Assembly (NCBI GenBank): GCA_011051615.1
Contig: DRKU01000193.1
Span: forward strand, 1 to 41,648
Origin: Gammaproteobacteria bacterium
Lineage (GTDB): Bacteria; Pseudomonadota; Gammaproteobacteria; CAMYNG01
DNA: 41,648 nt
Direction: 5' to 3'
Positions within the stretch are counted from its first letter, which is position 1. Each line of letters opens with the position of its first letter. Shown in pieces: positions 23,192 to 35,137 of this stretch. The translations under genes were made by a program, and so were the position numbers. Below the pieces are notes generated by a model. It was not told where the DNA came from and did not search any database. It was given only the letters and a program-made list of their open reading frames with translations.

Positions 23192-23225
23192 AAAAAGCCG
23201 CGCCTGTTACAGGCGCGGCTTTTTT
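23192..23225. terminator. Bidirectional rho-independent terminator
   Basis: Arms AAAAAGCCGCGCCTG (23192-23206) and CAGGCGCGGCTTTTT (23210-23224) around a TTA loop. The A tract on one side and the T tract on the other make it work on both strands, ending ssb (+) and the long envelope operon (-), whose last stop codon is at 23253. Confidence 0.93.
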
Positions 23226-23252: not shown

Positions 23253-25316
23253 TCAGCCACCACCGGGCACGGCGGGTTCTTCGGCAGGTGTCTCGACTGG
23301 TGGTGTTTCGGCAGGCGTCGTGGCCGGTGTTTCTGCCGGGGTCTCTGCTGGGGTCTCTGCTGGTGCAGCGGGCTCGTCGGGGGCGCTGCCGGGACGATAG
23401 AGCTGGTCATAGAGGCGCACCATGGAGAAGCGTGCGCGTGCGATCTGCTGCTGCAGGACGTTGCGGCGTCGGTTGAGCTCGGTTACCGCCAGCGATTGCA
23501 GGCGCGCTTCCTGACCGACGATGGCACGGGTCAGGCGCGGTGCCAGGGATCTGAGGCGTGAGTTCAGAGCCGTGAAGCGCGGCGTAAAACCGGAAAATGC
23601 CCCCGTGGCAGCATTTTGCATGTCACTGATGTTTGCCTTGACGCGATTGAGATCCTCCAGCTGCCGGGCCAGTTCGGCCTGTTGCAGGCGGGCATCCCAC
23701 AGGCGTGGTGCGAAGTCACGCATGATATTCCAGCGTAGCTGGCCACGCAGCAGGCGGATGCGATCCAGCAGGGCCTGGGCCTCGGGGCTGGCCGGTTGCT
23801 GTCGGCGGATATGGTCAGCGAGCTGTCCGAGGCGAGCCAGGGTGCGGGCCTCGTCCACGCTGGCAAGTTCCATGGCGTGGCTGGCCTCTCGGGCCTCGAT
23901 GGTGTCCAGGCGTGTAGCGAGGGCGCGGAAACGCTGGTTGATACGCGCGGCACGTCCCTCGAAGCCCAGTTGGGCCACGCGCCGTGAGGTCTCCTCCCAG
24001 GCGCGGGCGCGGGTCTGTACGGCGGTCATGAAGCTGGGCAGGCGATCCTGCCAGCGCTTGAGGACATAATCCAGATAGAGCAGGGTGCGGAAATCCTCGA
24101 AGGCCCTCTGGAAGGCGTCACTGGTGAGTAACTGGGTAATGTAAGGTGCGGCATCGCTGTCGGGCAGTTCCGATAACTGCCAGCGTGCGTCGGACTCGTC
24201 GTCCACTACCTGCGGGCGCAGGGCACGCAGAAAATCGCCGGAGCGTACGCGCAGGATGACGTTGTCCAGTTTGGCCAGGGCGGTCTCCAATGTGGCAATG
24301 GCCTTTTCATAATGGGAAATGGCCAGTTCCGGTTTGCCAAGGCGTTCGATAACGTGCGGGATGGTGATAAGGGATTCCTGCACGCTGGGATCGATGGCGT
24401 GGCGTTTCTTCAGCTCGAACCAGGGTACCAGCGCCTTCTGGTAGTCCTTGTTTGTGGTATAGGCCCAGCCCAGCCCCAGCAGGGCCTGGTTGGAGAAGGG
24501 GCCTTCGAGGCGCACACGGCTGAAATATTTCACCGCTGCCGCACCCCTGTCCTTCGAAAACCAGGCATAACCCAGTGCCAGGTTGGCGCGATCGGCCAGT
24601 GACTTGAGCTCTTCGTCGTCACTTTCCAGTTCGGCGACTTCCTCAAGCAGGTCGCTGCCTTCCTCGAGCTTGCCAAAGCGGATCAGCGAAACACCGGTAT
24701 TGTAATGGGCATAGTAGCGCCAGGGTGAATCGTCATCGAACTCATCGAGGACCTTGATCGCGTCGTTGATCTTGCCCTGTGCGCGTAATACGTCCACCAG
24801 CAGGTTGTAGCGTTCGTTGTTGCGCTCCGTTGGCAGGGTATCCCTGATTTGCGTCAGGGCGTGCTCCGCGCCGGCAAGATCACCCTTGAGGTAACTCAGT
24901 TTGGCGCGATAGAACCAGGCAATGTCACGGGTCTTGAGCGGTCGTTCCGGTGTCAGCAGGGGTTCCAGTTGTTGCTCGGCCAGATCGTAGAGGCCGTAGG
25001 AAACCGCCAGACCGGCGAGCAGCAGGTCTGGTTCGTCACCCTGGAAGGTCAGTGGATGATGGCGCTCGGCGACGATGAGATCAGTGAGTGAAAAGAAGTG
25101 TTTCTGCTGGTAGAGATGAAAGAGTATCTCACCATAGTAGAGGCGATCGATGGCCTTGCGCCCGGCCAGCGCGGCCTCTTCTTCAGTGGTCGAGTGGCCG
25201 GGGGCTGTTACGGCGAGCAGCGCCGCGGTTGCCGCGCCCAGTATCAGTGTCTTCCCCCGCCGTATCCTTTTCATCATTATTATCCCGGCCTGTGCCTTAT
25301 TCCCAGATGCGGACAT
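23253..25316 (-). CDS. Large exported TPR/coiled-coil protein with PAET tail
   Basis: Up to 687 residues; the likely start is one of two ATGs at 25277/25274, giving a signal peptide (MKRIRRGKTLILGAATAALLAV) with cleavage near GHS-TTEEE. Residues about 60-360 form TPR-like helical repeats (WFYRAKLSYLKGDLAGAEHAL, NQALLGLGWAYTTNKDYQKAL and others). Residues about 390-640 are long Arg/Leu/Gln-rich helices resembling coiled coil. The last 45 residues are repeats of Pro-Ala-Glu-Thr ending in GGG. It should be a periplasmic scaffold. Last gene of the envelope operon; the preceding gene overlaps or abuts its start. In architecture it recalls the periplasmic TPR proteins of myxobacterial Glt complexes, but I cannot assign orthology. 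Confidence 0.75.
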   Translation of the reverse strand: MSASGNKAQAGIIMMKRIRRGKTLILGAATAALLAVTAPGHSTTEEEAALAGRKAIDRLYYGEILFHLYQQKHFFSLTDLIVAERHHPLTFQGDEPDLLLAGLAVSYGLYDLAEQQLEPLLTPERPLKTRDIAWFYRAKLSYLKGDLAGAEHALTQIRDTLPTERNNERYNLLVDVLRAQGKINDAIKVLDEFDDDSPWRYYAHYNTGVSLIRFGKLEEGSDLLEEVAELESDDEELKSLADRANLALGYAWFSKDRGAAAVKYFSRVRLEGPFSNQALLGLGWAYTTNKDYQKALVPWFELKKRHAIDPSVQESLITIPHVIERLGKPELAISHYEKAIATLETALAKLDNVILRVRSGDFLRALRPQVVDDESDARWQLSELPDSDAAPYITQLLTSDAFQRAFEDFRTLLYLDYVLKRWQDRLPSFMTAVQTRARAWEETSRRVAQLGFEGRAARINQRFRALATRLDTIEAREASHAMELASVDEARTLARLGQLADHIRRQQPASPEAQALLDRIRLLRGQLRWNIMRDFAPRLWDARLQQAELARQLEDLNRVKANISDMQNAATGAFSGFTPRFTALNSRLRSLAPRLTRAIVGQEARLQSLAVTELNRRRNVLQQQIARARFSMVRLYDQLYRPGSAPDEPAAPAETPAETPAETPATTPAETPPVETPAEEPAVPGGG
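23275..23372. repeat. Short tandem repeats coding for PAET motif
   Basis: Within the 3' end of the TPR gene the unit GGGGTCTCTGCT and close variants (GTGTTTCTGCCG, GTCGTGGCCG) recur in tandem, encoding the minus-strand series of AETP units. Such in-frame 12-base repeats can change copy number by slippage without shifting frame. Confidence 0.6.
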
Positions 25317-25845
25317 CGAACTCCGGTAAGCGACGACTGCGAATATTGGTGATCTTCAGTTCGGTGAACTGCGGTTTTTCGCTTTTGACGAAATTGTGTG
25401 ACACGCCACGGCGATAGTCGCGCTTCTTGTGGTCGGTGCCAAGGAAGTAGGCTACGAGTTCGTGTTGACCAGGCGCGATACTGCCAATATAGATCTGGTG
25501 CATGCCGCCACGCTGCAGGGCATAGACCTCACGCTCGGAGTAGATATGGTGCGCCACGATGCGGTCATCGAGACGTACCTCGACCGAGCGCAGGTCGAAC
25601 AGTTTGGCCGTGTCCATGGAGACAAAGACCGTGAGGCGCGTACTGGCCGGGAAGAGAAAGTCCTGTTCGGCGGCCTGTAACTCGCTGTTCATGTCTATGA
25701 TTTCCTGGCGCAGGGCGCGGATCTCTGCATCCAGGGTGGCGTCCGGTGCCGGCTCCTGTGCTGATCCTGACAACGGCAGCAGCAGGGTCAGTAGCAGGGC
25801 GGCCTTTATCAGTTTGCTCGATATCCCGGTCATGATTGTTCCCAC
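25297..25845 (-). CDS. Exported coiled-coil protein, operon member
   Basis: 182 residues (178 if started at the second Met, codon at 25833). A signal peptide (SSKLIKAALLLTLLLPLSGSAQ) is followed by a predicted coiled coil (ATLDAEIRALRQEIIDMNSELQAAEQDF, about 38-65 with gaps) and a beta-rich domain (LTVFVSMDTAKLFDLRSVEV..., GQHELVAYFLGTD). No cysteines and no catalytic motif were seen. It is probably a periplasmic partner of the TPR protein whose gene starts within 20 bases of its stop. I do not recognise the family by name. It lies 11 bases after the DUF3570 gene. Confidence 0.7.
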   Translation of the reverse strand: MGTIMTGISSKLIKAALLLTLLLPLSGSAQEPAPDATLDAEIRALRQEIIDMNSELQAAEQDFLFPASTRLTVFVSMDTAKLFDLRSVEVRLDDRIVAHHIYSEREVYALQRGGMHQIYIGSIAPGQHELVAYFLGTDHKKRDYRRGVSHNFVKSEKPQFTELKITNIRSRRLPEFDVRIWE

Positions 25846-25856
25846 ATGTCGTTGTT

Positions 25857-26972
25857 TTAATAGAACAGGCTGAAGTAGAACTGGAAGACATTGGCCCGGA
25901 AAGAATAGGGCTCGCCGGTTACGTAATTACTGAAATTATCATAATTGAACTTGAAACGATTATAGGAAAAATTCAGCTTGCCCGCCTTGAAGGTGGCCGT
26001 CGGGCGTCTGAAGATATCCCACTCGATCTTGAAACCCATGGAATAGCTGTTGAAGGTGCTCAATTCCTTGTCACGGGCCATGTACTGCTGGATGCCGGAA
26101 AAGTTGTCCGAATAGAAAGAGGCATCGGACTGGGTGTAGTAACGCAGGCGGTACTCCGCCAGCACATCCTTGCTGTAGTGGTGGGTATAGCCGGCTTCGA
26201 CGGTATGCGCACGAATATCCCAGTCATCGCTGTAGAAACGGTAGTACAGGCGCAGGGAATCGCGGTTGCCCAGGTAGACGATACTGCTGACCGCGGCGGC
26301 CTGGCTGGCACGGCTGTCCGGGTAGCGTTCCGGCACATTGGGTACGCCATTGATGATGGCAACGCGATAAGGGTTGTTGAGGAAACCCTCTGCGGTAATG
26401 ACTTCGTAGTCAAAGTTCATGACCATCTTCGGGGTGATGACCTGCGAGACGCCGAAGTGGTACTTGTAACGGTCGACATCCTCGGCAAAGGTGTCATCGG
26501 TGGAGTCGCCCACCGTGTCGAAACCACGTGAAACGCCGAGATTGAGCGTGGTCATGCCATTCATGAACTCGTGCGCCAGGCTGAAGGCAAAGGTGTCCGC
26601 ATCATAGTCGTTTTCGGCACTGTTGACGTAGTTGAAGCTGATGATGGTGTCTTCATGCAGATAATCCACCCCGACGCCAACCTCGTCGCGTTGCTCGCGG
26701 TATTCACTGGCGTTCATCTCCACGTCGATGGAGGCACTGGTCACATTGTCGATGTAATAGTGGCCGGAGAAGGACAGGGATTCACCGTAGCCCTTGCGCA
26801 CCAGTACCGCCGGACCGGAAATGCGCACCCCGCCACCATCATAGTAGTGGTAGAGCATGTCCGAACGGTCCTCGGGCAGCACGGCGGCCTGTGCCAGCCA
26901 TGGTGCGAGGCATGCCAGCACCAGCAGCGGCCGAACGCTGCGCCTTACCCCCTGTGCAAGCGTCTTGTTCAT
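25857..26972 (-). CDS. DUF3570 outer-membrane beta-barrel protein
   Basis: 371 residues with a signal peptide cleaved near AQA-AV. The mature part begins with LPEDRSDMLYHYYDGGGVRISGP, matching the start of DUF3570 proteins, which follow small DUF4266 proteins in many proteobacteria. The rest is a series of alternating amphipathic strands rich in Tyr, Phe and Asp (SFSGHYYIDNVTSASIDV, SLRLYYRFYSDDWDIRAHTV) and ends FYFSLFY, a C-terminal aromatic signal for insertion by the Bam machinery. Substrate or function is unknown. Upstream DUF4266 gene is 30 bases away. Confidence 0.85.
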   Translation of the reverse strand: MNKTLAQGVRRSVRPLLVLACLAPWLAQAAVLPEDRSDMLYHYYDGGGVRISGPAVLVRKGYGESLSFSGHYYIDNVTSASIDVEMNASEYREQRDEVGVGVDYLHEDTIISFNYVNSAENDYDADTFAFSLAHEFMNGMTTLNLGVSRGFDTVGDSTDDTFAEDVDRYKYHFGVSQVITPKMVMNFDYEVITAEGFLNNPYRVAIINGVPNVPERYPDSRASQAAAVSSIVYLGNRDSLRLYYRFYSDDWDIRAHTVEAGYTHHYSKDVLAEYRLRYYTQSDASFYSDNFSGIQQYMARDKELSTFNSYSMGFKIEWDIFRRPTATFKAGKLNFSYNRFKFNYDNFSNYVTGEPYSFRANVFQFYFSLFY

Positions 26973-27002
26973 TATGATTGTGATTGTTTCCTGTACTGCC
27001 AG

Positions 27003-27236
27003 TTAGTTACAGCCGCAACCGCCGCCCGAGCCGATACCACCACCCTGCGAGGCTTCACGGGTCTCGTAGACATGCAGCAGGTACATGTCATAGACGGGAT
27101 CGCGTGACAGGGCCATCACCGGGTCGGCAAGAAACTCGCGCTCATAGGGCTGTACCCAGGGTTCGGAAGCGCAGCCGCCCAGCCCTCCCAACATGAGGAG
27201 GGCGAGCAGGGCAGAGCCGATTTTCAATGCCTTCAT
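27003..27236 (-). CDS. DUF4266 lipoprotein with GGGCGCN tail
   Basis: 77 residues. A lipobox LGGC places the lipid on Cys22, giving a mature peptide of only 56 residues. It has the DUF4266 core WVQPYEREFLADPVM and HVYETREAS, then a Gly-rich tail GGGIGSGGGCGCN with Cys74 and Cys76. The conserved terminal Cys-Gly-Cys-Asn is unusual and suggests metal, cofactor or disulfide chemistry at the end of a flexible arm. In other genomes the family is often next to an ApbE-type flavin transferase, which is not found in this window. A thioredoxin gene lies directly upstream (18 bases), a possible reductase for the Cys pair. Confidence 0.88.
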   Translation of the reverse strand: MKALKIGSALLALLMLGGLGGCASEPWVQPYEREFLADPVMALSRDPVYDMYLLHVYETREASQGGGIGSGGGCGCN

Positions 27237-27254
27237 AACAGGATACCTGTGCGT

Positions 27255-27758
27255 TTATCTGGCCAGCAGGGCCTTGATGTTTTTGGCGTACTTTTTCTCA
27301 TAGCCCTTCTTGTAACCAAGATGGACGTAACGCACCTTGCCGGAGCGATCGAGGATGACCGTACTCGGCATGGCCTTGAGCTTGTAGCGCTTGCTGATCT
27401 TCTGCAGGTTGTCGAACAGCACCGGGAAGCTGATCTTGAACTCGGCGGCCATCTCGCGCGCCACGTCGGGATTCTTGTCCACGTTGACGCCGAGCAGGAC
27501 GAAGCCCTTGCCCTTGTACTTTTTGTACAGCGCCTCGAGGTAGGGCAGCTCCTTGCGGCAGGGCGCACACCAGGTGGCCCAGAAGTTGATCATCACCACC
27601 TTGCCGCGGTAGTCGGCGAGGCGCAGATTCTTGCCGGTCATGCTGGCGAGGGTAAAGTCGGGCGCGGCCTTGCCAACGTCCACGGCCCACACCGGCGAGG
27701 CCAGCAGCAGACCGAGCAGCAGGGAAATGAGAGCCAGGGAAGTCTTGTGGAAGTTCAT
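27255..27758 (-). CDS. TlpA-like exported thioredoxin
   Basis: 167 residues: signal peptide (LALISLLLGLLLASPVWA) then a TlpA/ResA-type thioredoxin fold. The active site is WCAPC with Cys64 and Cys67 in INFWATWCAPCRKELP; the cis-Pro loop is MPSTVILD. The family keeps thiols of periplasmic proteins, for instance apocytochrome c, reduced. Within this operon likely targets are the Cys pair of DUF4266 or the CX4CH and CXXCH motifs of the neighbouring cytochrome-like proteins; that is inference. Lies between a beta-barrel gene and DUF4266. Confidence 0.92.
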   Translation of the reverse strand: MNFHKTSLALISLLLGLLLASPVWAVDVGKAAPDFTLASMTGKNLRLADYRGKVVMINFWATWCAPCRKELPYLEALYKKYKGKGFVLLGVNVDKNPDVAREMAAEFKISFPVLFDNLQKISKRYKLKAMPSTVILDRSGKVRYVHLGYKKGYEKKYAKNIKALLAR

Positions 27759-27788
27759 GTCGATACCTCGTGGTTCCTTAATCGCATT

Positions 27789-28427
27789 CTAGAAAAAGTA
27801 ACTGGCGCCAACGCTCAGCTCGATATTATGAGTGGTCTTGTCGATATCCAGGATCGTCGTCTTGTAGATGTGATCACGAAAATCGATATGTACCGCCAAC
27901 CAGTCGATGGGCACCATCCGCAGTCCTCCCCCGAGCACCAGCGTAAAGTTGCTGTCGTTATTGAGCTTGGTGGTACCCAGTCCGGCGACGAAGTAGGCCG
28001 AACTGGTCCACGCCCGCCCGGTCTGGGCGAATACCTCGCCGGGCAGGATGTTGTATCCAAAGAGGACATTCAGGTAGGTGAGGCCATCGTCCTGCAGGAT
28101 GGTCTGTCCCAGCAGGTCGGCGGTCTCGGAGGTGACGGTACTGACCCCCACCGTCCCCTGGATGAAGATGTCCTCGGTCAGATGGTAAGTGCCGAAGATG
28201 CCGACCACGGCGTTGGCACCAAAGTCCTCGGCACTGTAGAGACCAACGAAACCACCCACTTCGATATCATCCACCTCGATCTGGGGCGGCTTGATCTCGC
28301 GCCGTTCCACGTTGGGGGTGATGATGTCACGGTTGGTCGGTGGTGCGGCCAGGGCCGAGCTGCCGCCAGTGATCAGCAGCAGGAGTGCGAGGACGGAGTT
28401 GAGCTTGTGGTTCAGTTTGCTGGGCAT
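27789..28427 (-). CDS. Outer-membrane beta-barrel protein, OMP_myx_plus-like
   Basis: 212 residues with a signal peptide ending ALA-AP. After a short linker (ITPNVERREIKPPQIEVDDIEV) it forms a small barrel of about eight strands: GTYHLTEDIFIQGTVGVST, YLNVLFGYNILPGEVF, LVLGGGLRMVPIDWLAVHID and terminal HNIELSVGASYFF. The strands FGY-NxLPGE, Gly-rich MVPxDWLAV and the H-N-x-E-x-x-x-G ending fit the outer membrane beta-barrel family seen in myxobacteria and other proteobacteria (TIGR04565, recalled, not searched). It is a paralogue of the next upstream gene. Probably a structural OM partner of the TPR protein. Confidence 0.78.
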   Translation of the reverse strand: MPSKLNHKLNSVLALLLLITGGSSALAAPPTNRDIITPNVERREIKPPQIEVDDIEVGGFVGLYSAEDFGANAVVGIFGTYHLTEDIFIQGTVGVSTVTSETADLLGQTILQDDGLTYLNVLFGYNILPGEVFAQTGRAWTSSAYFVAGLGTTKLNNDSNFTLVLGGGLRMVPIDWLAVHIDFRDHIYKTTILDIDKTTHNIELSVGASYFF

Positions 28428-28439
28428 GATTCTGCGTCC

Positions 28440-29189
28440 TTAGAAAAAGTAGGAAACGCCGGCGTTGAACTGGGAAAAGCGATCGCTGCGATTGTTACCA
28501 CGCACGGTGGCATGTTCCACCACTTCACCACGAATGAGAAAGCGATCAGTGATAAACCATTGTACGCCGAAGCCGGCATTGAGCATATCCAGGTTGTGTC
28601 GGTTGGTGAGGATGACCCCACCGCCGCCGCCAAGATTGTCGGGGACGTTGAGAAAACGGCTGTAACCGATGAGGAAAAAGGGTCGCAGGCTGTCGAGTAC
28701 CTGGATGTCCACCAGCACGTTGGCCTGGATGAGCGCGGAGTCGGCGAAAATACCGGACACCGTCGAGAGGGCCATCTCCACGGAAATGTGCTCGCTGGTG
28801 CGGTAACCGGCGCGGATGGTGATGATGCCTTCCTGATCGAAGATACCGCCCGCGGCGCCGAAACGGAAACGGTCGGCGAGAACCTTTTCAACCAGGTTGT
28901 CACGCCAGGTGGGTGGCACCTGGGCACGTTGCAGGGTTTCTTCCAGTTGCTGTTTCTTGACCCAGCCCTGGCGATTCTTGCTGGCGCGCACCTCGAACCA
29001 GTCGGTGCGGCGGCGCAGGATCTCGATGAACTCACCGCGTTCCACCACGTCGTAGACGGGGTAGCTGGCACCGGGTCCGCCATGCAGTTCGATAAAGGGA
29101 TCCGCCACGCGCACCCGTAGTGGCGGGGTACCGGCCGCCTGGCCGGCAAGCGGGACGAGAAACAGAATAAGCAGAAAAAGGTGCCGCAT
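28440..29189 (-). CDS. SH3-domain outer-membrane beta-barrel protein
   Basis: 249 residues: signal peptide (LFLLILFLVPLAGQAAG), then an SH3b-like domain (about 22-85: LRVRVADPFIELHGGPG, YDVVERGEFIEILRRRTDW, GWVKKQQL) and a barrel related to the downstream gene, ending FNAGVSYFF. Shared landmarks are SEHISVEM-LSTVSG versus TEDIFIQ-GVSTVTS and the F-x-x-x-DRFL(I)-R-x-E/D strand near the C-terminus. SH3b domains usually bind peptidoglycan or peptides, so this protein could link the outer membrane to the wall. The downstream paralogue starts 12 bases after it, showing gene duplication in tandem. Confidence 0.78.
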   Translation of the reverse strand: MRHLFLLILFLVPLAGQAAGTPPLRVRVADPFIELHGGPGASYPVYDVVERGEFIEILRRRTDWFEVRASKNRQGWVKKQQLEETLQRAQVPPTWRDNLVEKVLADRFRFGAAGGIFDQEGIITIRAGYRTSEHISVEMALSTVSGIFADSALIQANVLVDIQVLDSLRPFFLIGYSRFLNVPDNLGGGGGVILTNRHNLDMLNAGFGVQWFITDRFLIRGEVVEHATVRGNNRSDRFSQFNAGVSYFF

Positions 29190-29237
29190 GGGTTTTCGGT
29201 ATTGTTGTTTTTACGCTGGAAACCTGTCTACCGGAGT

Positions 29238-29687
29238 TTAACTGTTCTGGATCCAGATCAGTATGGTCTGGTAGCCCATATCCGCCGTATTGGGAAAGCC
29301 GACGGAGCCGGGATGGCTGTCACCGTCCCCCTGCAGCGGCATGGTCAGGACACGGCTCTGGGGGGGGTTCGAGAAATTGACCATGGCTTCCATGGACAGC
29401 TGGTTGTCCAGCAGCTGCTGCTGACCCTGGGCGGTCATGGGGTCGGGGTTCGGCCAGATCTTGAACGATCCTCCCGACACGCCCCCGGCTTCGTGGCAGC
29501 CGGCCTGGGAGCAATTGTACGGTGCCATGTCCAGTACCGAGGACTGCACGATGGGAAAGGTGGAGGTATCGCCGATGGGGATGGCCGGGCCCGATTCGAT
29601 GGCATCGCCACCGCAGGCGCTCAGACCCAGGGTGGCCGCCAGCAATAGCCAGGGGAAACGGGGAAACTGCTTCATGATAGATGCCAA
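29238..29687 (-). CDS. Cytochrome-like lipoprotein with CX4CH motif
   Basis: 149 residues (145 from Met5 at 29675, the better start). Lipobox LSAC puts the lipid on Cys25. A single haem-type motif is seen as Cys59-S-Q-A-G-Cys64-His65, a CX4CH spacing in place of CXXCH. The following segment (GGSFKI, DNQLSMEAMVNF, SHPGSVGF, TILIWIQNS) has the look of planctomycete-type or CxxCH-peroxidase-associated small c-type domains with a terminal helix. If haem is attached, it is an outer-membrane or periplasmic electron carrier; if not, the Cys pair may bind metal. First gene of the leftward run and divergent from the 30259 operon. Confidence 0.7.
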   Translation of the reverse strand: MASIMKQFPRFPWLLLAATLGLSACGGDAIESGPAIPIGDTSTFPIVQSSVLDMAPYNCSQAGCHEAGGVSGGSFKIWPNPDPMTAQGQQQLLDNQLSMEAMVNFSNPPQSRVLTMPLQGDGDSHPGSVGFPNTADMGYQTILIWIQNS

Positions 29688-30258: not shown

Positions 30259-31467
30259 ATGACAACAGGTCGAAAAACAGTGAAAACAGTAACCGGATTC
30301 ATCCTGGCTGGCATACTCCTGTGCAGCTTTGGCGCCGCCAACGCGGCCAATCGCGACGTCGCGCGGCGCATCCACGATCGGCTCACCGGGACGCCTCCGT
30401 CGGCCCTTGTCGATCCCACCCTGCTGGACCAGATGGAAGCCCTGGTGGCTGCCGGCAACGCTACTGGGGCCGCCCAGTTGGCTATCGATCAGGCCGGCAA
30501 TACCGGCTTCTATAATTCGGTGCTGAAGAACTTTTTCGCCACCTATACCAGCACCGACGGTTCGGTCTACGTTCCGCTCAACGATGCCACGGCCACCATG
30601 GTGGGCATGGTGCGTGACAATGTCCCGTTCGACCGGGTGCTCTACGGTGACGTGCTCTACACCGGTGGCAACGCGGTTTCCACGCCCTACGCCATCGACA
30701 GCAACCAGCATTACCAGGAACTGGAAGACAATGGTGTCGATCTCAAGGCCAGCCTGGTGTCGGCCTCGCAGGCCCTGTTGCATCCCATGCTGGGCGTCAA
30801 TGATGTGGCCGGCGTGGTCACCACGCGCGCCTTCGCCCAGTCCTTCTTCTCTGCCGGCACCAATCGGCGCATGCTGGCCTTCGTATTTCAGAACTTCATG
30901 TGCCGCAGCCTCGAAGAGATCAACGATGTAACGCGTTCCCCGGATCGTATTCGCCAGGACGTGTCACGCGCACCCGGTGGCGACTCGGCCATTTATCTCG
31001 GCAGCTGTGTCGGTTGCCATGCGGGTATGGACCCGCTGGTTGGTGCCTATGCCTATTACGAGTGGGACGATCAACTGGGTCAGCTGGTATTCGATAATAC
31101 GCAACCGCAGCCCAAGAACTTCATCAACAACACGGTTTTCCCCTCGGGTTTTGTGACCACCGACAACAGCTGGATCAATTACTGGCGACGTGGCCCCAAC
31201 TCGGTGCTGGGCTGGAATCAGACCATGCCGGATCGGGGCATGGGGGCGCAGTCCATGGGCCGCGAGCTGGCGGCATCCAGGGCGTTTGCTTCCTGCCAGG
31301 CGGAAAAGGTCTACGAGGCCGTTTGCCTGCGTAAGCCCAAGAATGGTGCGGAGCGCCAGATGCTCGAGACGCTGACTGACAACTTCATCGCCAACGGTTA
31401 CAACATGAAGACCCTGTTTGGTGATGCAGCGGCCTATTGTGCCACGCAGGACGTCGGCGGGCTGTAA
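30259..31467 (+). CDS. Exported CXXCH protein, DUF1588/DUF1585-like
   Basis: 402 residues with a Sec signal peptide (TGFILAGILLCSFGAANA). The body is mostly helical. One haem-type motif is at Cys250-V-G-Cys253-His254 within GSCVGCHAGMDPLVGAYAYYEW, which matches the CxxCHxxMDPxG pattern of DUF1588-type proteins found with planctomycete cytochromes. The C-terminus (ELAASRAFASCQAEKVYEAVC then ERQMLETLTDNFIANGY) resembles the DUF1585 pattern. Four further Cys could form two disulfides. The role is unknown; these families occur in gene sets with cytochrome lipoproteins and DUF1501 proteins, as here. First gene of a three-gene operon. Confidence 0.75.
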   Translation: MTTGRKTVKTVTGFILAGILLCSFGAANAANRDVARRIHDRLTGTPPSALVDPTLLDQMEALVAAGNATGAAQLAIDQAGNTGFYNSVLKNFFATYTSTDGSVYVPLNDATATMVGMVRDNVPFDRVLYGDVLYTGGNAVSTPYAIDSNQHYQELEDNGVDLKASLVSASQALLHPMLGVNDVAGVVTTRAFAQSFFSAGTNRRMLAFVFQNFMCRSLEEINDVTRSPDRIRQDVSRAPGGDSAIYLGSCVGCHAGMDPLVGAYAYYEWDDQLGQLVFDNTQPQPKNFINNTVFPSGFVTTDNSWINYWRRGPNSVLGWNQTMPDRGMGAQSMGRELAASRAFASCQAEKVYEAVCLRKPKNGAERQMLETLTDNFIANGYNMKTLFGDAAAYCATQDVGGL

Positions 31468-31539: not shown

Positions 31540-33471
31540 ATGAGTATGACACGCGGAGAAAGCAAGGCAGTGCGGTCGGCGACAGAAGACCGACTGACAC
31601 AACGCGTCTACCGTAGCGGTGCACTGGCCGCCATGTTGCTGGGCGCAGTGTTGCTGTCTGCCTGCGGCGGCGGTGCACGTACCGGAGTGGCACCGGATCA
31701 GGGGCCGCCTGCTGTCAATCCTCCGGCCGGTGGTGGCGGCGGTGGTCCTGCCCCGGTTACCAATACCGGTATCGATGAAACCGTCAGTGTCATCTGGTTC
31801 CGTGACAACATCTGGCGTCCGGTGCTGGAGCCGACCTGTTCCGGCTGCCATTCCAGCGGTCCGGGTACCGGCCAGTTCGCACCGGCCAAGGTGGGCGGCG
31901 CCGATCCGGATATTTCAGTTTTCCGTGCCGCGCATGATGACTTCAAGGGTCGCGTCAATTTCCAGGATCCCACCGCCTCGCGCGCAGTACAGAAACTGCC
32001 GCTGGAACAGCACAACTGTGGCCCGCAGATAGGTGCCGAGACGCGTCTCGAAACCTGCATCCGCGTTGCCGGCTGGAATCCCGCTGATGCTACTTATGTG
32101 GCGACACCGGGTTCGCTGGTGGACCTCATTGCCCAGTGGCGCGATTTCCGTTCCGCCAATGGCCTGGTCAACTTCGTCATGACCAGCGGCATTGCGCAGC
32201 TCTCCAGCGCCAACCCCGAGCAGCTTTATTTCGATGTGAGCATGCACACGCAGATCCCGGACAGCTACATCCGTTTCGACGTGCAGCCCTACGATGCGGC
32301 CAATGCAGCCTACCTGTTCGAGAATCCGACCTTTGTCATTGCCACGGGTGGTAACAATGGTCCCGACGGCGAAGCACTGTATATTACGCGCTGCCAGGGC
32401 TGTCACGGGGTGCGTGACAACCCCGACCCCGGCGGTGTGAACACGCGGCCGATTACCGGCACCATCATCCAGAACCAGATCGCCACCAATGGCGCCATGC
32501 AGAACAACGTCGGCGACCTGCAGAACGATCTGGCCAGCCTGGATGCCATTGCGGACTACATCATGAACGGTCCGCAGCCGACCGGCGCGCTGGTGGAGGT
32601 CACACCGACCCTGCTGCCCGCCAACCAGCAATTCCAGTTGAGTGAGATCAAGATCGCCATCAACGGCGTGCCACCCTCGGTGGGTCAGTCCTATCGCAAC
32701 GTGGACCTGATGGTGAACAACACCCAGCAGGCGATTTCTCCGCTGGGCGCGGTCGTGCCGCAGGCCAACGGCTGGGCACAGGACCAGTTCAGTCTGGAAC
32801 TGGGTTATATCGCCGTGCCGGATCCCGTCAATGCGGGGCAGATGATCGAAACCGATGCCCGCGTGGCCGATCCCATCTTCTCCGCACCACCGGTGGACCT
32901 GGTGACAGTCAATCTGGTACCTAATAACGGTCTGCGTAACTTCTCGGAGATCAATGCCACCATGTCGGTGCTCACGGGTGTCGATGGCCAGGCGGTCAGT
33001 GCCATTCGCAACCAGTTCAACAGCCTCAGGCAGCAGTTGCCGGGCGGCAATGACCTGGGCAGCTACGTGGCCTCGCACGAGGTGGCCATCCTCAAGCTGG
33101 CAGTGGAGTACTGTGATGTCTTCATGGGGGATGCCACCCTGCGGACCAACTTCTTTGGCACCGACCCGCTCAACCCGTTCGATCGTAACCTGCTGTTCAA
33201 CGGCCTGATCGACAACATGGTCATGTCCGGGCCGACGCAGATCGCCCTGCAGCCGCTCAAGACGGATCTGCTGGCCGATCTCAACGCCCTGTTCGATGGA
33301 GTTACCACGGATGCCCTGGGTAATCCGCTGGTGGATGCAATGGGTAATCCGGCGCCGATCCCCGGCATCTGTGTGACCAACGATTGTGTCAACAGTGCTG
33401 CGGCGCAGAGGCTGGCGGCTCGCGCTGCCTGCATGGCGGTGTTGAGCAGCGCCGCGGTGAACGTACACTAA
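31540..33471 (+). CDS. Lipoprotein with two CXXCH haem motifs
   Basis: 643 residues. A long basic N-terminus (about 25 residues) precedes the hydrophobic stretch and lipobox LLSAC, lipidated at Cys42. A Pro/Gly-rich linker follows. Two haem motifs are seen: Cys100-S-G-Cys103-His104 and Cys285-Q-G-Cys288-His289 (ITRCQGCHGVRD, typical of class I cytochrome c domains, with ADYIM supplying a possible Met ligand). Between them is a beta-rich domain; the C-terminal 300 residues are uncharacterised, with paired Cys near 612-617. Looks like a diheme electron carrier on the outer membrane or periplasmic side. Second gene of the operon, 72 bases after the first. Confidence 0.78.
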   Translation: MSMTRGESKAVRSATEDRLTQRVYRSGALAAMLLGAVLLSACGGGARTGVAPDQGPPAVNPPAGGGGGGPAPVTNTGIDETVSVIWFRDNIWRPVLEPTCSGCHSSGPGTGQFAPAKVGGADPDISVFRAAHDDFKGRVNFQDPTASRAVQKLPLEQHNCGPQIGAETRLETCIRVAGWNPADATYVATPGSLVDLIAQWRDFRSANGLVNFVMTSGIAQLSSANPEQLYFDVSMHTQIPDSYIRFDVQPYDAANAAYLFENPTFVIATGGNNGPDGEALYITRCQGCHGVRDNPDPGGVNTRPITGTIIQNQIATNGAMQNNVGDLQNDLASLDAIADYIMNGPQPTGALVEVTPTLLPANQQFQLSEIKIAINGVPPSVGQSYRNVDLMVNNTQQAISPLGAVVPQANGWAQDQFSLELGYIAVPDPVNAGQMIETDARVADPIFSAPPVDLVTVNLVPNNGLRNFSEINATMSVLTGVDGQAVSAIRNQFNSLRQQLPGGNDLGSYVASHEVAILKLAVEYCDVFMGDATLRTNFFGTDPLNPFDRNLLFNGLIDNMVMSGPTQIALQPLKTDLLADLNALFDGVTTDALGNPLVDAMGNPAPIPGICVTNDCVNSAAAQRLAARAACMAVLSSAAVNVH

Positions 33472-33529: not shown

Positions 33530-35137
33530 ATGGCGAAGAAAGAAATAAACGAAACCGAGAAGCAGTTCGACGATACGCCCCTGTGTCACGAGGGTCACAA
33601 GAAGCCGGTTACCCGGCGCGACTTCCTGGCCCAGGGTGCTATCGCTGGCGGTGCCTACGTGATGGCGCCGAGCCTGCTGGCCGGGCTGCTGGGACGCTCC
33701 AGCGAGGCCCATGCCGCGGCGGTCAACTGCGGCCAGGTCACGGCTGGCGGCCTCGGTATCCCCTTCATGTGCTTCGATCTTGCGGGTGGCGTGAGCATGT
33801 CCAATGCCAACGTTATCGTCGGTGACCAGGCGGGAGACCCGACCACATTCACCGATGCGGGCATGATCAAGTATGGCCTCATTCCCGGGGACACGACCGA
33901 AGATATCCGTATCAACAACGGCCTCATCGACAACCAGTTTGGCCTGCCGTTCCACGTGCAGAGTGGTTTCCGCCTTGGCATGCTCTCGAAGATGTCGGCC
34001 ACTACCATTGCCAATACCGATGGCGCCGTGATCTGCGCACGCTCGGGCAACGACACCAGCAATAATCCGCACAACCCCATGTACGGGCTCTACAAATTCG
34101 TCAACATGGCGGCCGGTGGTGCCGGTGCCAGCATGGGTGAGCTGGTCAATTTGATCGGCAGCCGTGATCGTGACTCGGGTGGGCGTTCCATCGCACCCGA
34201 CTCCATGATCGACCTGACCCAGCGGCCGACCAAGGTTTCGCGTCCCTCGGATGCCATGGGTGTCGCCGATGCCGGTCGCCTGGGTCAGATCCTGTCCGAT
34301 GCGAATGATCGTAGCGCCCTGCTTACGACCATCCAGCGCATGAGCCATCGCAAGGCCGATGCCCTGCGTGAAGATGCCATGGCCCTGCAGGACGCCATGC
34401 ATCGCGCCACCTTCTGTTCGGCCAGCGATGCGCGCGAGACTTTCACCCGCGTGGGTAACCCCAGCCTGCTGGATCCGCGGATTGATCAGGCCATCACCGG
34501 TGGTGGTGGCTTCACACCCCTGTTCAGCACGGCCGAGGCCGATCGTGGCGGTAGCCGCAACGATATCTTTGCCAAGACCGCCTCCATCATGAAGCTGGTG
34601 GTCAACGGCTGGGCGGGCGCCGGGACGGTGGAAGTAGGTGGTTACGACTACCACAACGGTACCCGCACCACGGGTGACACACGCGACTTCGAGGCCGGTC
34701 AGGCCATCGGTGCGGCGCTGGAATATGCCGCACGCATGAACCAGCAACTCATGGTCTATGTCTTCAGTGACGGCTCCGTGGCCGGTGACCGCGATGGGGA
34801 TGCTGATCCCAACAATGGCCGTATTGTCTGGCGTGGTGACAACGGTGGTACAGCTGCCGTATTCATGCTGGTCTACAATCCACCGGGACGGGGTGGACGC
34901 GTGGCCATGCGCCAACGTCAGATCGGTTATGCGCGAAATTCCGCGTCGGTGGAGACCAATGCCAATGCCGTGGCCAATAACGTCGAAGGTCTGGCCTATT
35001 CCATCGTGCTCAACTACATGGCCTTGCACAACATGGAAGGGCAGTTTACCAATTACTTCGGTACTAACATTCTGGGTTCTGGTGCGGACCTGGATCAGTA
35101 CATCGCGTTCTCCAATATTCGTACCGCACTGGTTTAA
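33530..35137 (+). CDS. Tat-exported DUF1501-like protein
   Basis: 535 residues. A twin-arginine signal VTRRDFLAQGA (Arg29-Arg30) with a hydrophobic stretch and an AHA cleavage site near 62 indicates export in folded form, often with a cofactor. The region VEVGGYDYHNGTRTTGDTRDFEAGQAIG then AARMNQQLMVYVFSDGSVAG mirrors the DUF1501 pattern (an Asp/His-rich metal region, then a strand followed by Ser-x-Phe/Gly in the family). DUF1501 proteins have an alkaline-phosphatase/sulfatase-like fold by family knowledge, but the active-site residues differ here, so activity is uncertain. A good AAGAGG ribosome site precedes the ATG. Terminator follows at 35200. Confidence 0.75.
   Translation: MAKKEINETEKQFDDTPLCHEGHKKPVTRRDFLAQGAIAGGAYVMAPSLLAGLLGRSSEAHAAAVNCGQVTAGGLGIPFMCFDLAGGVSMSNANVIVGDQAGDPTTFTDAGMIKYGLIPGDTTEDIRINNGLIDNQFGLPFHVQSGFRLGMLSKMSATTIANTDGAVICARSGNDTSNNPHNPMYGLYKFVNMAAGGAGASMGELVNLIGSRDRDSGGRSIAPDSMIDLTQRPTKVSRPSDAMGVADAGRLGQILSDANDRSALLTTIQRMSHRKADALREDAMALQDAMHRATFCSASDARETFTRVGNPSLLDPRIDQAITGGGGFTPLFSTAEADRGGSRNDIFAKTASIMKLVVNGWAGAGTVEVGGYDYHNGTRTTGDTRDFEAGQAIGAALEYAARMNQQLMVYVFSDGSVAGDRDGDADPNNGRIVWRGDNGGTAAVFMLVYNPPGRGGRVAMRQRQIGYARNSASVETNANAVANNVEGLAYSIVLNYMALHNMEGQFTNYFGTNILGSGADLDQYIAFSNIRTALV

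Follow-up and report, generated by a model that had tools for sequence, protein, structure and literature searches.

The window analyzed here is a stretch of 41,648 nucleotides from contig DRKU01000193.1 of a gammaproteobacterial genome (assembly GCA_011051615.1). It contains an operon of eight open reading frames (ORFs), all located on the minus strand between positions 29675 and 23253 and separated by 48, 12, 30, 18, 30, 23 and 19 bases, respectively. This spacing was computed with the likeliest start codons of the lipoprotein (ATG 29675), the protein here named p182 (ATG 25833) and the tetratricopeptide repeat (TPR) protein (ATG 25277). A signal peptide could be read directly at the start of all eight products, and genes 1 (LSAC) and 5 (GLGGC) carried a lipobox. 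This is in agreement with a first-pass annotation made from the sequence alone, which had described eight genes for exported proteins on one strand with gaps of mostly 10–50 bases. The features of the operon are:

29238..29675, minus strand: gene 1, lipoprotein of 145 aa with lipobox LSAC; first gene as in cluster G2 of Myxococcus xanthus, its position matching GltK/CglC (PMC3169522, PMC4488436)
29493..29513, minus strand: single CX4CH heme-type motif of gene 1, present in 20 of the 21 members of the family
28440..29189, minus strand: gene 2, SH3 domain (PF08239, SH3_3, 31.5 bits) and small outer-membrane beta-barrel (PF13505, OMP_b-brl, 29.6 bits) in GltB-like position
27789..28427, minus strand: gene 3, outer-membrane beta-barrel of the OMP_myx_plus family in GltA-like position (TIGR04565, 120.4 bits, cut-off 60, model positions 1–161 of 161)
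27255..27758, minus strand: gene 4, TlpA/ResA-like periplasmic thioredoxin (PF00578, AhpC-TSA, 111.6 bits), CxxC at 27558–27569
27003..27236, minus strand: gene 5, DUF4266 lipoprotein (PF14086, 70.9 bits, gathering cut-off 27), C-terminal CXC at 27009–27017
25857..26972, minus strand: gene 6, DUF3570 protein of the Glt-linked clade, predicted 16-strand outer-membrane barrel (PF12094, 146.6 bits, gathering cut-off 25)
26730..26750, minus strand: altered ApbE site DNVTSAS of gene 6 (residues 75–81) in place of Dxx[ST]GA[ST], by motif comparison
25297..25833, minus strand: gene 7, p182, exported coiled coil with immunoglobulin (Ig)-like beta-sandwich and marker of the core cluster (AlphaFold2 mean predicted local distance difference test, pLDDT, 88.4)
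23253..25277, minus strand: gene 8, exported GltC-like TPR protein of about 674 aa, recognized by TPR models; sole family member in the genome
23192..23225, unstranded: bidirectional intrinsic terminator that separates gene 8 from ssb, read directly as a perfect inverted repeat flanked by A/T tails

The repeat at 23192–23225 was not flagged by the terminator scan, probably since its stem extends through the T-run. Within the operon the promoter scan found one weak promoter-like match, compared to 2.9 expected by chance.

Profile searches with the TIGR04565, DUF3570 and DUF4266 models, which had been proposed along with the first-pass annotation, gave matches above the cut-offs for genes 3, 6 and 5, respectively. 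Gene 2 scored below the TIGR04565 cut-off of 60 (32.1 bits). Nevertheless, the barrels of genes 2 and 3 were homologous in a profile comparison (97.3%, E 2e-11), so that the earlier description of two paralogous barrels, one of them with an SH3 domain, holds. An aromatic residue at the C-terminus was found in 56 of the 58 members of the gene 2 family, and the C-terminal CXC of DUF4266 in all 78 members. The p182 model had no match in the PDB at E<=0.001, and its Ig-like fold is uninformative on function. The p182 gene adjoined a GltC-like gene in 119 loci.

The resemblance to GltABC noted before is borne out by the gene order. In M. xanthus the proteins GltA, GltB and GltC, which are part of the gliding complex, bind one another in pairs (PMC4488436). 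The cluster G2 of this organism, gltK(cglC)-gltB-gltA-gltC, shares with the operon the order lipoprotein, barrel, barrel and TPR protein as well as the paralogy of the barrels (PMC4488436, PMC3169522), and the size of GltC (673 aa, PMC3169522) is close to that of gene 8. In contrast to cluster G2, the genes for TlpA, DUF4266, DUF3570 and p182 are located between the gltA-like and the gltC-like gene, one barrel carries an SH3 domain and the lipoprotein carries the CX4CH motif. The insertion of a TlpA-DUF4266-DUF3570 set into a GltABC-like unit, as first proposed, is thus supported by family matches and by conserved order. Since gltA and gltB were placed only in Myxococcales and Bdellovibrionales in PMC3169522, the gammaproteobacterial barrels extend their known range.

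The gene order is conserved well outside this strain, which decisively contradicts the possibility, raised with the first-pass annotation, that it might be a peculiarity of one strain. Among the loci examined, which, being retrieved via p182 or DUF3570, do not represent a random sample, all eight genes were present in the order of the window in 19. Seven genes, from the SH3 barrel to GltC and thus lacking the lipoprotein, were present in 32. The genes for DUF3570, p182 and GltC in 23 loci led straight into an AglRQS/GltG-type motor operon up to GltG (ApbE or a second TlpA allowed), and the motor core was present in 74. Because the arrangement is conserved, a chance explanation of the eight genes is excluded. 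Within the order the operon was present in all six genomes as far as contigs permit: the window genome, G003, G001 and G002 carried all eight genes in the same order, while G004 and G005 were interrupted by contig ends.

Clustering of the ORFs around p182 revealed a long conserved cluster. Its first part consists of an HZS-alpha-like heme protein, the lipoprotein, the SH3 barrel, the second barrel, TlpA, DUF4266, DUF3570 and p182. After p182 follow the GltC-like TPR protein, TPR proteins of about 930 aa and 215 aa, a small protein here named c4, TolQ/ExbB, two ExbD and a GltG-like protein. The cluster often includes ApbE, and in addition three divergent or neighbouring genes here named c21, c26 and c30. 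Family scans confirmed ApbE, MotA_ExbB, two ExbD and the AgmX/PglI C-terminal domain. In total, p182 was detected in 83 of 369 sampled gammaproteobacterial genomes and on no plasmid in a plasmid search. Among 84,980 species genomes, scanned with a closer alignment subset as the full p182 alignment is too diverse, at least 507 encoding stretches were found. Of these, 80 were examined, and 43 of the 80 had an ApbE at a distance of up to 10 kb. Across all loci examined, ApbE directly adjoined p182 in 39. The motor cores of L079, L081, L083–L089 and L091 had a diverged p182, which mostly fell outside the clade of redox-linked p182, and lacked redox genes over a distance of about 9 kb; they form a second subtype of the complex. 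Two bins with the titles Janthinobacterium lividum and Candidatus Planktophila (L139, L150) contained near-identical clusters of gammaproteobacterial type; here titles or binning look wrong.

Two types of DUF3570 were distinguished by Pfam score, here referred to as canonical (high) and Glt-linked (low). The Glt-linked type was present in 53 of the 55 genomes with a strong p182 among the 369 sampled (Fisher p ~1e-55, a value which overstates independence because the genomes are related). In 43 of these 53 genomes the two genes shared a contig and were never more than 30 kb apart; the other 10 had them on separate contigs of fragmented assemblies. A canonical DUF3570 was beside the best p182 copy in none of 25 genomes. 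This holds for the best copy, as a secondary p182-like match (G348:C35) had a canonical DUF3570 set (L181) at a distance of about 4 kb. In a quick tree 70 Glt-linked sequences were placed on one side (SH-aLRT 99, stem 1.31) and 18 canonical ones on the other, which bears out the division by score. The low-scoring DUF3570 of L193, without Glt neighbours, was placed between the two sides. A canonical TlpA-DUF4266-DUF3570-ApbE set is also present in the window genome (L026, G000:C216, 5531–8584), its DUF3570 being about 25% identical. L150, L166 and L211 carry a deviant DUF3570 subgroup with EQVNDDS or EQVRESS at the flavin site and a barrel set divergent from p182.

For the window DUF3570, AlphaFold2 predicted a barrel of 16 strands (mean pLDDT 89.4), which matched the outer-membrane porins FadL, OccK and CymA as well as PelB in the PDB. 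In this model the ApbE site would lie between strands 3 and 4, on the outer side as judged by strand parity. The form [ST]SA[ST] was found in 49 of 73 Glt-linked proteins, with the Asp and the final Ser almost always retained. A comparison by eye showed no link between an ApbE in the cluster and the Gly form of the motif. Flavinylation of DUF3570, its DUF4266, thioredoxin and DsbD partners and a proposal for the DUF4266 CXC have been published (PMC8238504). The clusters described there share with the operon the TlpA-DUF4266-DUF3570 set, the CXC and the linkage to ApbE. However, the DUF3570 of our loci belongs to a separate clade with a mostly altered flavin site and is joined to an outer-membrane, TPR and motor machine; TolQ, ExbD, tetratricopeptide and beta-barrel partners are not mentioned in the main text of that paper.

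The motor half was found elsewhere in the window genome. Contig C155 carries ApbE (287.7 bits), a second p182, two TPR proteins, c4, TolQ, two ExbD and a GltG-like protein, and no GltC. TolQ/ExbB and two ExbD accompanied by TPR proteins are the set that characterizes an Agl/Glt core, here outside the window. The same arrangement was found in G003 and G001. The GltG-like protein matched the AgmX/PglI C-terminal domain (NF033768, 76.6 bits, cut-off 40) and scored 55.6 bits against the full GltG equivalog, below its cut-off of 650. Each of six family genomes had one GltC and one GltG-type protein at separate sites, and the halves are thus the sole available partners for each other. An assembly artefact cannot account for the split, since in the single-contig genome G002 GltG maps to 386 kb, GltC to 898 kb and the second p182, together with ApbE, to 2,399 kb. 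The window genome has two ApbEs, one at the motor half (C155) and one at the canonical set (C216). DsbD was found on C52 and a short DsbD-like frame on C102, neither of them near the operon. The second p182 (L015, G000:C155, 11220–11849) was highly divergent with a long branch and occurred with ApbE and, contigs permitting, with the motor half.

The system extends upstream into three divergent genes between 30259 and 35137, two of which encode heme motifs:

30259..31467, plus strand: c21, exported protein with a single CxxCH and weak PSD2/DUF1585 similarity; divergent neighbour in 20 loci
31540..33471, plus strand: c26, exported cytochrome-c-like protein whose relatives carry a LamG domain and cytochrome-like parts
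33530..35137, plus strand: c30, Tat-exported protein of unknown fold; Tat-type RRxF signal in 39 of 40 members

One CxxCH was found in all 47 members of the c21 family and two in 36 of the 40 members of the c26 family. The HZS-alpha-like heme proteins of other loci mostly contained two as well. The window c26 had 643 aa compared to about 840 aa usual in LamG-bearing relatives, and no LamG match was obtained for this copy. The Pfam scan of c30 was without significant match.

Judged by sequence comparison, the eight genes are the outer-membrane half, not the whole, of a predicted machine related to the Myxococcus gliding machine. The earlier account of the operon is to be amended in this respect, as well as by the CX4CH motif of gene 1 and the continuation of the system into the divergent genes. 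Together with the motor half we interpret the operon as a redox-equipped variant of the Agl/Glt core, a proton-driven trans-envelope machine with an outer-membrane end that would perform redox chemistry, and estimate the probability of this reading at about 60%. Comparison makes it highly probable that the lipoprotein, the two barrels and the GltC-like TPR protein in G2 order form one architecture that is genetically linked to an AglRQS-like motor, a GltG-like protein, TPR proteins and ApbE. The first-pass annotation had suggested a trans-envelope complex with a redox or cofactor function. Its redox character appears likely, but the operon is not self-contained, since the motor half is on C155 and the halves form one cluster elsewhere. 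For the outer part we infer a redox role as probable, with the canonical flavinylation motif altered in the window DUF3570; that electrons are specifically transferred across the outer membrane is a tentative proposal.

As in M. xanthus, GltC and the TPR proteins of such a machine would form the connection between the barrel pair and the motor with GltG. The DUF3570 barrel would reside in the outer membrane with flavin mononucleotide attached at the altered site by the ApbE of the motor half, and could pass electrons across or within this membrane. TlpA (CxxC) and the DUF4266 lipoprotein (CXC) may form a thiol relay, fed by DsbD, which reduces flavin or heme partners. Candidate redox partners at the surface are heme proteins, namely the CX4CH lipoprotein, c21, c26 and, elsewhere, the HZS-alpha-like protein. 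Work of the motor might gate, assemble or move the redox module. A less likely reading, in our view, is a new class of outer-membrane redox machine driven by the proton-motive force. In it, GltC would mechanically couple an AglRQS/GltG motor to surface heme enzymes and a flavoprotein barrel in the outer membrane, and ion flow would drive the transfer of electrons to external polymers or metals, or a redox attack on them.

Several observations weigh against the redox-equipped core. The window DUF3570 does not fit the flavinylation motif Dxx[ST]GA[ST] (TSAS for SGAS), and its Gly form was found in only 13 of 73 Glt-linked proteins compared to 19 of 19 canonical ones. In another protein a Gly-to-Ala exchange cuts flavinylation to about 50% (PMC12052999), and no published test of ApbE tolerance of Gly-to-Ser was found. 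Another protein of the cluster as flavin acceptor was considered and rejected, since no other family retains the motif. The HZS-alpha-like protein was absent from the family of the window, with positive controls that worked. GltC homology of gene 8 is suggested by published distribution, gene order, size and context, and no GltC model was matched in the profile search. Finally, 12 core loci had no redox gene in reach, hence a redox link is not common to all forms of the machine.

The strongest competing explanation is a machine for building or exporting heme proteins of the cell surface. Here, TlpA and DUF4266 would maintain heme-binding cysteines in the reduced state, the barrels and TPR proteins would serve as a platform for export or placement, and DUF3570 would be porin-like with a relic flavin site and without electron transfer. 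TlpA/ResA-like proteins function in cytochrome c maturation, genes for heme proteins are located next door and the flavin motif is eroded in most Glt-linked DUF3570. However, the linkage to ApbE persists, and the altered site retains Asp, Ser/Thr, Ala and Ser, which is beyond the need of a relic; we regard this explanation as rather unlikely. Still less probable, by analogy with M. xanthus, is a machine for surface attachment or motility in which the redox genes would merely modify or sense and contribute nothing essential. The barrels, GltC, AglRQS and GltG do have motility roles in M. xanthus (PMC4488436, PMC3169522), and the c26 relatives carry a lectin-like LamG domain. On the other hand, Luciano et al. 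judged the core alone unlikely to drive gliding (PMC3169522), and the redox genes are linked as tightly as the scaffold genes. That a canonical TlpA-DUF4266-DUF3570 set was inserted by chance beside an independent GltABC-like set is hardly credible. Such a set does exist elsewhere, including C216 of the window genome, but the same arrangement in many families, the separate DUF3570 clade and the association of p182 with DUF3570 already contradict this explanation.

We know of no redox module in the Nfs spore-coat machine of M. xanthus. This machine has the same core in non-motility use, NfsA-H being paralogues of GltA-H (PMC4488436). A gltC-gltD-gltE-gltG-aglRQS core occurs in non-gliding Gammaproteobacteria, and its function was left open in 2011 (Luciano et al., PMC3169522). 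Like our loci, this core is a single gammaproteobacterial cluster with a TolQ/ExbD motor, a GltG-like transducer, TPR proteins and GltC, and it contains an extra gene without Myxococcus counterpart to which p182 or c4 would fit. In contrast, ApbE, TlpA, DUF4266, DUF3570 and heme genes are not mentioned in the main-text passages of PMC3169522 that were consulted, and the complex of the window genome is split over two loci. A literature search, with subscription journals and preprints outside its range, found no paper joining the Agl/Glt machine with a flavinylation module.

The gene set is real and widely conserved. Comparison supports its architecture well; its redox chemistry and its task are putative. 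The cluster is common, as the scan for p182 indicates, GltA/GltB-like barrels are no longer confined to myxobacteria and Bdellovibrio, and DUF3570 proteins of an orphan class gain a genomic context. The conserved set of putative redox partners gives the Agl/Glt core of non-gliding Gammaproteobacteria a chemical role that can be tested.

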